Of a stretch of DNA of 64,000 nucleotides, positions 17,801 through 19,992 are shown one piece after another. How positions within the stretch are numbered: position 1 is the first letter of the stretch; each line of letters begins with the position of its first letter. Below the pieces are notes generated by a model that worked only from the letters and a program-made list of their open reading frames with translations, was not told where the DNA came from and made no database searches. Both the position numbers and the translations under genes were made by a program. The stretch comes from Centroberyx gerrardi (lineage: Eukaryota > Chordata > Actinopteri > Beryciformes > Berycidae), in assembly GCF_048128805.1 (NCBI RefSeq), contig NC_136010.1, positions 17,495,480 to 17,559,479 of the forward strand, given 5' to 3'.

Positions 17801-19992
17801 TGTAAACATTTGTACATTTGACATGGAATTGTGATGCACTGAGTCTTGAGGTTGCTCTGTGAATAGTGAGTTGATTCAATATTGCTGTTATCAATGATAA
17901 AGCGGAAACCTGTCCTGCATTTAACTAGTGATTGACTTGAATCAAAGCATATCTGAGTTGTAAAATACAATTTTATTTTAGTCATACTGCAGAGTTTTGT
18001 TATTTTACTATCTGTTCTAAATGCCATTATTTTCCTTTCTAGTGATTTAAATGAAACTACTGCTCAATGGTAAGAATTTAAATTAGTATTTTGTATCAAA
18101 CCATTTTATTACGTCCCTGCAAATTTTAAAGTGTGTTGAGTATTTGAATTTATGTTTTTACACTACAGGTCCAGTTTCAATGAAACTACAGACCAGTGGT
18201 AAGATTACATTCACTGTGACCTTTGTAGACATTCATCTCCGGATCTATCACACTCATTTGAATTTTTTGCACCTCTCAAAATCTGTTTTACCCTAATCTG
18301 ACCTCCATCGCTTTGCAGCCCATTTGTTGTGACCAAAGTGTCCCTGAGGGTCATGACTCCAGTGATCCTCACAGTCTTTGTCCTGGCACTGTACCTGCAC
18401 GCCCAGCAGGTTGAATCTACTGCACGCCTCGACTTCCTGTGGAAACTACAGGTATCTACAACGTCCGCTAGAGGGCGCCATCTCACCATGTTGACTACAG
18501 GTCTCTCTGTTGTCCAGGCAGATCCTCTTCACACTGTTAAAGAGCCTCAACCTTGTCCATCAATAAGAAAACTGATGAGAATACTTGACACTGATATGGA
18601 TTATTATCTTTTTGCCTTTATGAGGGCAAATATCTGCAGTCTTTCCTTTATCCTCACCCTACCAGACAGTAAATTATACTCGTACACACTGAATGTATGT
18701 TGTCAAATGTTTTCCAACGTCCAGATCTTTCTCCCTGTCCTCCCTCTCTCAGGCCACAGAGGAGAAGGAGGAGATGGAGGAGCTGCAGGCCTACAATCGT
18801 CGCCTCCTCCATAATATTCTGCCCAAGGATGTGGCTGCCCACTTCTTGGCACGTGAGCGGCGGAACGACGAGCTGTACTACCAGTCCTGTGAGTGTGTGG
18901 CCGTCATGTTCGCCTCCATCAGCAATTTCTCCGAGTTCTACGTGGAGCTGGAGGCCAACAACGAGGGAGTGGAGTGTCTCCGGCTGCTCAACGAGATCAT
19001 CGCCGACTTTGACGAGGTAAAGTTTGGGATTGGCGGTATTTGTAAGCTCAGTGTGCCGTCAGCATTTTTCATTTGTGTTTCTCTGTATGGTAGTGCAGTT
19101 TTTTTATTCGTACTACACCTAATTTGGCCTTTGCTTACAGCTAATTTAAAAAGGATTTATCATAGTTTGGAAATTGCACTTACAAAATGTAACCATGGGC
19201 TATTTTTTTATCCTCATCTCAGATCATCAGTGAAGAGAAGTACAGGCAGCTAGAGAAGATCAAGACTATCGGTTCCACCTACATGGCGGCCTCCGGTCTC
19301 AACGACTCCACCTACGACAAGGAGGGCCGCTCCCATATTACTGCACTGGCCGACTACGCTATGAGACTGAGGGAACAGATGAAATACATCAATGAGCATT
19401 CCTTCAACAACTTCCAGATGAAGATAGGTGAGGGAGAAGTAACTGCTTTTTCTGTTTGACAGCATGTAGAATCCAGCAAAAAAAATTGCAACTTGTTCAG
19501 CTCAAGCTTCAAATGAAAGGAAATAATGTCTGTTATTCTTTTATTTCCAGGTCTGAACATTGGACCAGTGGTAGCAGGGGTTATTGGGGCACGGAAGCCA
19601 CAATATGATATTTGGGGAAACACAGTCAATGTGGCCAGTCGTATGGACAGCACAGGAGTACCTGACTGCATACAGGTAGGGTTCATTACTTCTCTGCTAT
19701 GTTGTATCGCTGTAAAACAATGTAGCAATGCAGGAGAATAGTTTTGTTTTTACACTGGATCTATGTTTTTAATTTTCAAAAAAAACCCTTGTGCTCTAAA
19801 GTTTTACCAGGTAAACAATCCTCCAACAACATGCAATTTTTCACTCCCCCGTTCTGCCCACAGGTGACTACAGACCTCCACCAGGTGCTTGCAAGCAAAG
19901 GGTACGTGCTCGAGTGTCGTGGAGTGGTTAAGGTCAAAGGTAAAGGGGAAATGACAACCTACTTCCTGAATGATGGACCGCCCAACAGTTAG
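11834..19992 (+). CDS. adcy6: Adenylate cyclase type 6 (5' exon outside window)
   Basis: Membrane enzyme making cAMP from ATP; Gs-stimulated, Gi- and Ca-inhibited class. Exons: 11834-11983, 13287-13408, 14286-14397, 14563-14690, 14818-14976, 15067-15208, 15713-15841, 15982-16010, 16159-16306, 16428-16525, 16675-16762, 16867-16983, 17151-17309, 17518-17693, 18043-18069, 18169-18198, 18319-18451, 18753-19016, 19223-19427, 19551-19675, 19864-19992 (stop TAG). All phases join, giving 889 codons. C1a carries the metal-binding Asp residues in [10 protein letters not shown] and LGDCYYC. C1b has [18 protein letters not shown], typical of type 6, not 5. Membrane segments 7-12 are encoded at 16428-18451. 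C2a has [11 protein letters not shown] (adenine-site Lys) and [13 protein letters not shown] (catalytic Asn and Arg). Mammals have about 1165 residues, so about 280 N-terminal residues lie left of the window. The a/b teleost paralogue cannot be decided. GVPDCIQV replaces the usual GVPDRIQV. Confidence 0.95.
12300..12690 (+). mobile_element. L2-clade LINE 3'UTR fragment
   Basis: Intronic sequence ending in TTTGTAAAGTCCTTCGAGAC, then GGGTTATATAAATAA and a short (CTTGAA)n tail, which is the usual 3' end of fish L2 LINEs. Upstream, GGGAGTTTTTCCTTGC also belongs to that 3'UTR. No coding part remains. Flanking sequences at 12046-12300 and 12690-13050 look like further unclassified dispersed repeat, so the fragment may be nested. 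Confidence 0.7.
13162..13200. repeat. (CA)n microsatellite
   Basis: CA array with AA and CG interruptions, about 90 bases before an adcy6 exon. Confidence 0.9.
13712..14031. repeat. Two (CA)n arrays in one adcy6 intron
   Basis: An interrupted CA array at 13712-13795 and a nearly perfect one of about 28 units at 13975-14031, 180 bases apart, in the intron before the DIEGF exon. Both give spurious His-Thr open frames. Confidence 0.93.
15300..15657. repeat. Degenerate CAAGTC-rich satellite-like array
   Basis: About 350 bases built of many copies of CAAGTC and AAGTC in irregular spacing. A longer unit containing CAAGTCTAAATGTAGA followed by ACCAAGTCAAGTC appears at least twice (about 15342 and 15403), suggesting a higher-order period near 60 bases. 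It fills most of the adcy6 intron between 15208 and 15713 and stops about 55 bases before the acceptor. Similar AAGTC-rich repeats are, from memory, dispersed in fish genomes. Confidence 0.85.
16113..16142. repeat. (CT)n array beside an adcy6 acceptor
   Basis: Perfect CT run ending 16 bases before the acceptor AG at 16157-16158, so the simple repeat serves as part of the polypyrimidine tract. Confidence 0.9.
18043..18198 (+). CDS. adcy6: Tandem microexons of adcy6 (27 nt and 30 nt)
   Basis: Exon 18043-18069 follows TTTCCTTTCTAG and is followed by GTAAGA. Exon 18169-18198 follows TTTACACTACAG and is also followed by GTAAGA. Each contributes one base to the preceding codon and two to the next, so either or both can be skipped in frame. 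The peptides contain DLNETTAQ and SFNETTDQ. Aligned from the region before AATGAAACTAC through the donor, 25 of 32 bases match, which points to duplication of one exon. They fall between membrane segments 11 and 12, at the site of the single SSNETF stretch of mammalian ADCY6. Use in transcripts is inferred from splice sites and reading phase only. Confidence 0.8.

Follow-up and report, generated by a model that had tools for sequence, protein, structure and literature searches.

The adenylyl cyclase gene adcy6 of the fish Centroberyx gerrardi contains two adjacent microexons that, by their sequence, are tandem duplicates of one another, each encoding an N-glycosylation sequon in an extracellular loop of the enzyme. 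A second adcy6 gene in the same genome carries its own pair at the same place, and the pair probably predates the split of these two paralogs. From the sequence, there is about an even chance that the two microexons are used alternatively, with at least one of them kept.

Position and layout of the microexons

The stretch of DNA that was analysed, here called the window, is 64,000 nucleotides long, and adcy6 is a gene of its plus strand. The two microexons, A and B (A1 and B1 where they are compared with those of the paralog), sit between the exons for TM11 and TM12; the labels TM10-TM11 and TM12 are the numbering that we take to apply to these exons. The features are as follows.

17518..17693, plus strand: adcy6 exon with two hydrophobic segments (TM10-TM11), ending in the split codon CT-; placed by identity to the paralog and adcy5, alignment to human AC5 (8sl3) and hydropathy
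18043..18069, plus strand: microexon A (A1), 27 nt; placed by splice-site scores, an intron scan with shuffles and homology to B
18070..18168, plus strand: intron between A and B, 99 nt; scanned for branch-point-like motifs
18169..18198, plus strand: microexon B (B1), 30 nt; 23 of 30 bases identical to B2 of the paralog, gap-free alignment to human AC5
18319..18451, plus strand: TM12 exon, whose first base, C, completes the Cys codon TG-C

Both microexons are flanked by AG and GT, are cut in the same split-codon phase at both ends and have lengths divisible by three, which agrees with the original prediction down to the coordinates and the lengths of 27 and 30 nt. Because the phase is the same at both ends, A and B can each replace the other in frame. 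The prediction had also placed the encoded loop between TM11 and TM12. Hydropathy supports this, since the loop falls between two 19-residue hydrophobic segments, as does the 8sl3 alignment, in which the microexon site is the matching place in human AC5.

A further very short adcy6 exon of 29 nt (GIDESSSKD) is found at 15982-16010, in the C1b region. As its length is no multiple of three, the frame would be lost on skipping, and the exon is probably constitutive. Upstream of the first placed adcy6 exon, open frames at 9326-10076 (plus strand) have, by eye, the look of the terminal part of a LINE-type reverse transcriptase. Open frames at 33148-39565 (plus), 45458-48059 (minus) and 52133-54408 (minus) resemble exons of three further genes, which by eye we take to be g6pd, gpd1 and asic1.

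Homology of the two microexons

Sharing of 25 out of 32 bases, including the GTAAGA donor, had been counted between A and B, and the count is exact. In a global alignment the two are identical in 19 of 30 columns, which 3 of 20000 shuffles equalled, so that the exon duplication claimed at the outset is upheld. When 60 bases upstream are compared by eye, the likeness is not seen to continue in the flanking introns, which fits an old duplication. By adjacency and sequence homology, A and B are classed as homologous, tandem duplicated exons.

Relatives in the same genome

All relatives compared come from one genome (G000, 779 Mb). A DNA search finds another adcy6 gene on the contig of the window, at a distance of 6.5 Mb, and protein searches find one adcy5 gene, on C10. 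In the TM11 exon, protein identity to the window gene is 89% for the adcy6 paralog and 69% for adcy5. The microexons of these genes share the intron position and phase of the pair in the window.

L002:1235-1267: paralog microexon A2, 33 nt, ...AANDSLQ-C, sequon NDS
L002:1359-1388: paralog microexon B2, 30 nt, ...LNGTTEQ-C, sequon NGT
L040:2696-2716: adcy5 microexon, single candidate, 21 nt, EPINGT, then S-C

The spacing from A2 to B2 is 91 nt. Thus the predicted pair is present in adcy6 but is not peculiar to this gene, since the paralog has a pair of its own and adcy5 has one microexon. A recent, gene-specific duplication was considered and rejected for the same reason.

The microexons differ in how well they are conserved. 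B1 and B2 are more alike than any of 20000 shuffles; A1 and B2 are matched as well by 7 of 20000, and B2 and the adcy5 microexon by 80 of 20000. The DNA likeness between A1 and A2 (1168 of 20000 shuffles as good) and between A2 and B2 (3892 of 20000) is not significant; the peptides of A2 and B2 are matched as well in 13 of 5000. Human AC5 was compared as protein only, and fish adcy5 at the exon level. The peptide of A1 matches human AC5 strongly (0 of 5000 shuffles as good), and that of B1 aligns to it without gaps.

No stray fish ADCY5/6 DNA was confirmed in the scanned viral contigs (0 of 54 pattern stretches) or genome contigs (0 of 149), and among the 30 best matches listed there is no intronless ADCY5/6 retrocopy spanning the joined query. 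Several of the listed matches cross the exon junction with identities of 36-60% and appear to belong to other types of ADCY. At G000:C7:18312571-18312888, an ADCY-like match (36% identity) within a 528-residue open frame spans the query exon junction without an intron.

Age of the duplication

That the second adcy6 gene carries the pair at the same place makes the pair likely to be older than the split of the paralogs. The simplest history would be a single duplication before the split, after which A changed more quickly in the paralog. It may also be that A arose independently in each gene, as the DNA likeness of A1 to A2 and of A2 to B2 is not significant. The ancestral AC5/6 exon is most likely B, with A as the added copy, judging mainly from the conservation between B1 and B2 and also from the likeness of B2 to the adcy5 microexon. 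Since the A1 peptide matches human AC5 well too, B is the likely ancestor, short of proof.

Silent sites also suggest an old divergence of the adcy6 paralogs. At 199 four-fold sites, 87 differ, 52 of them by transversion, giving a 4DTv of 0.26 raw and 0.37 corrected. Against adcy5, the corrected 4DTv is 0.69 for the window gene (72 sites) and 0.33 for the paralog (75 sites), the block at 18329 having been left out of both comparisons as out of register with adcy5 (2 of 41 identical). Because 0.33 between the paralog and adcy5 is close to 0.37 between the two adcy6 genes, silent sites alone give no clean order of splits; protein identity in the TM11 exon pairs the two adcy6 genes.

Downstream of both adcy6 copies lies, in the same orientation, a gene that by eye we take to be galnt6-like (window 27548-30031, at C14:17523553; the other at C14:10988608). 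The duplication thus took in a block of two or more genes. Outside the window, the best gpd1-like match is on C5, and the teleost genome duplication is no more than a possible source of the block. Zebrafish likewise has adcy6a and adcy6b (PMC9693263).

Splice sites and chance expectation

Splice sites were scored with simple, untrained matrices. The yardstick consists of 45 acceptors and 44 donors from the three ADCY5/6 genes, each taken as the best score near an expected border; at least one of them, the TM12 acceptor of the paralog, was placed 4 bases off. On this scale every site of A and B lies above the median: the acceptors at the 62nd (A) and 80th (B) percentile, the donors at the 75th (A) and 66th (B). 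The sites of A2 and B2 lie at the 84th to 93rd percentile.

With loose cut-offs, the 625-nt intron contains no open candidate of 15-51 nt that keeps the frame apart from A and B. Stricter cut-offs were set slightly below the scores of the weakest microexon among the five, and were thus chosen after the microexons had been seen. With these, dinucleotide shuffles of the intron contain any candidate in 3 of 2000 cases and a sequon-bearing one in none of 2000, and 17 other adcy6 introns (4919 bases, three phases) contain no microexon candidate. The corresponding intron of the paralog has A2 and B2 as sole candidates (any candidate in 5 of 2000 shuffles, with a sequon in 0 of 2000), and that of adcy5 has one (3 of 2000 and 0 of 2000).

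The encoded loop

Both A and B encode the sequon N-E-T. A sequon is present in all five microexons (A1, B1, A2, B2 and that of adcy5), which are not independent of one another; when each is shuffled, 5-8% of the open sequences contain one. The frame had been predicted to survive all four combinations, with two, one or no sequon. Translation of the C-terminal half from 16428 gives the same result, as the forms with neither, A, B and A+B are all open to the natural stop and have loop-6 sequon counts of 0, 1, 1 and 2. Spliced alone, A gives 10 residues and B 11. With A+B the two sequon asparagines are 10 residues apart, and with neither microexon the loop reads ...SNALPFVV.

The Cys that follows the microexon has a codon of mixed origin, TG being supplied by the microexon and C by the TM12 exon. 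Since its codon is split over this junction, skipping both microexons also deletes the Cys. Where A is joined to B, TG meets G and Trp is encoded instead. Human AC5 reads NAIDFFNNGTSQCPEH here (8sl3), which contains NGTSQC, with the Cys present. In fish adcy5 the Cys stands one codon later than in the adcy6 microexon product and its codon is contained entirely in the following exon; skipping the 21-nt microexon would thus drop the sequon and keep the Cys. The form of adcy6 with no sequon thus involves more than simple glycan loss. The tunable module of two, one or no sequon that was originally proposed therefore stands in part: its four forms are open, but the last of them is also without a Cys found at this point in human AC5 and fish adcy5.

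The four adcy6 microexons share the ending CA[AG]TG, which reads Q-C once spliced to the TM12 exon, and CAATG is kept in A1 and A2 alike. A T at the second-last base of an exon is not favoured by the splice consensus. These endings fit the joining of each exon directly to the TM12 exon in at least some transcripts, a weak indication since inheritance could also explain them. Taken together, the position between the TM11 and TM12 exons and the order of N-x-S/T followed by Cys identify the adcy6 microexons, on sequence grounds, as forms of the AC5/AC6 loop-6 sequon exon.

Use of the pair in splicing

Alternative use of the pair is expected because each microexon is apparently a complete substitute for the other: either alone restores the starting Leu, the sequon and the terminal Q-Cys. 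In the mechanism proposed, the loop-6 sequon microexon of an adcy6 ancestor would have duplicated in tandem before the fish paralogs split. Inclusion of A alone or of B alone would then give one glycan and the Cys, and inclusion of both would give two glycans and a loop longer by 9-10 residues; the form that skips both would be rare or non-functional. The loop-6 glycan would influence folding, membrane delivery and activity, in keeping with reports on AC6 and AC8.

Several features of DNA can make exons mutually exclusive. The steric criterion is a distance of less than 50 nt from donor to branch point, and others are a mismatch of U2 and U12 sites and a frame break on double inclusion (PMC5740500). 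In the 99-nt intron between A and B, yTnAy occurs once in the range of 12-50 nt before the acceptor, at position +83 counted from the donor, and across the A-B introns of the two genes (99 and 91 nt) the donor is 54-83 nt from the branch-point-like site. Steric exclusivity is therefore not supported. No other such enforcer is seen in the DNA either, the sites being GT-AG of U2-like strength and the lengths divisible by three. Regulated exclusivity may still operate.

Good sites on every exon suit plain co-inclusion equally well. Both microexons may be constitutive, in which case loop 6 of Adcy6 would just be longer and carry two sequons, spaced by 10 residues, without regulation, and this reading is a serious contender, somewhat below an even chance. 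It agrees with the above-median strength of every A and B site, with the open frame of A+B and with the lack of any evident steric, frame or splice-type barrier; the 29-nt exon at 15982-16010, which breaks the frame if skipped, indicates that short exons of this gene can be constitutive. On the other hand, the end of a constitutive A need not encode Q and TG, yet A1 and A2 keep CAATG, and the loop would exceed the length of that in human AC5. Alternative use of equivalent exons is thus the favoured reading on present sequence evidence, with plain co-inclusion close behind.

It is improbable that A is decaying or unused and that B is the sole exon used, giving one glycan as in mammals. The lengths of A1 and A2 (27 and 33 nt) and their lack of significant likeness would suit such decay, B having been kept at 23 of 30 bases, but in both copies of A the splice sites are still good, the frame open and the sequon present, whereas relics dating back to the paralog split should have lost all of these. 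That A is a chance pseudo-exon from random intron sequence is hardly credible. It is short enough for one, but it is homologous to B and has a counterpart in the paralog, and candidates of its kind are absent from the 2000 shuffles, when a sequon is included, and from the 4919 bases of the 17 other introns.

A broader proposal extends the favoured alternative use to a glycan-and-cysteine cassette of teleost adcy6. Tissue-specific choice of A, B or A+B would set the number of glycans and thereby the surface level and the sensitivity to Gi and forskolin, and the paralogs would since have diverged (NET/NET and NDS/NGT). N-x-S is generally the weaker glycosylation site. This proposal is speculative and, as a whole, unlikely.

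Comparison with known systems

Loop-6 glycans. The sequon at the loop-6 site of mammalian AC6 is presumably NET. Mammalian AC6 is reported to be glycosylated at N805 and N890, in loops 5 and 6, with lower activity after mutation of these sites or treatment with tunicamycin and with altered regulation by Gi and PKC, in line with the effect of N-glycans that the original prediction had cited, while glycosylation of AC5 is described there as unverified (PMC11021717). N890 lies in the same loop as the fish sites and is of the same sequon type, with B as its likely counterpart; unlike the mammalian enzyme, fish adcy6 has two exon-encoded copies of the site.

Splicing and glycans in AC8. The AC8-B splice form lacks an exon carrying N-glycosylation sites. 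Extracellular glycans can thus vary in this adenylyl cyclase as well, through exon skipping in AC8-B, whereas fish adcy6 has an exon duplication. The AC8 glycans, on loops 5 and 6, are reported to contribute in part to bringing the enzyme to the plasma membrane (PMC6556161).

Tandem exons. Exon 5 of SNAP25 is, like the adcy6 pair, a case of adjacent, homologous, substitutable exons from an old duplication (PMC2581893). Double inclusion of the adcy6 pair stays in frame and no structural enforcer of exclusivity is present, in which it differs from mutually exclusive exons of the SNAP25 type. Tandem duplicated coding exons are a known class, to which the adcy6 pair adds a new case, older than first thought. 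The tandem exons of the SNAP25 type are much longer than the adcy6 microexons. No word beginning with "adcy" occurs in the main texts of three papers on tandem exons (PMC9741552, PMC5740500, PMC9013439).

Neuronal microexons. The adcy6 microexons resemble those controlled by Srrm3/4 in length (about 27-33 nt) and in keeping the frame (PMC12626420). The Srrm3/4 layout has UGC and a pyrimidine tract just upstream, and UGC is found at A1 only, one of the four adcy6 microexons: TGC is at 18022-18024, 21 nt upstream of A, and there is none within 40 nt upstream of B1, A2 or B2. With UGC near A only, a neural programme of the Srrm4 type is no more than a lead. The main texts of three zebrafish microexon papers (PMC12626424, PMC12626420, PMC13281805) contain no "adcy" word, although the last links microexon regulators to cAMP signalling and mentions adenylyl cyclases generally. 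Within the portions covered of the literature on ADCY5/6, adcy6a/adcy6b, microexons and glycosylation, and AC8 splicing, no published account of an adcy6 microexon duplication was found.

Biological meaning

Very short exons tend to escape standard RNA aligners (PMC7821500). With a pair in both adcy6 paralogs and one exon in adcy5, the duplication of these very short exons lends itself to dating. If both microexons are constitutive, the result is an ordinary extension of the loop. Should A and B be used alternatively, splicing would control how many extracellular glycans a major cAMP-producing enzyme carries, and fish would provide a natural test of the role of the loop-6 glycan of AC6.
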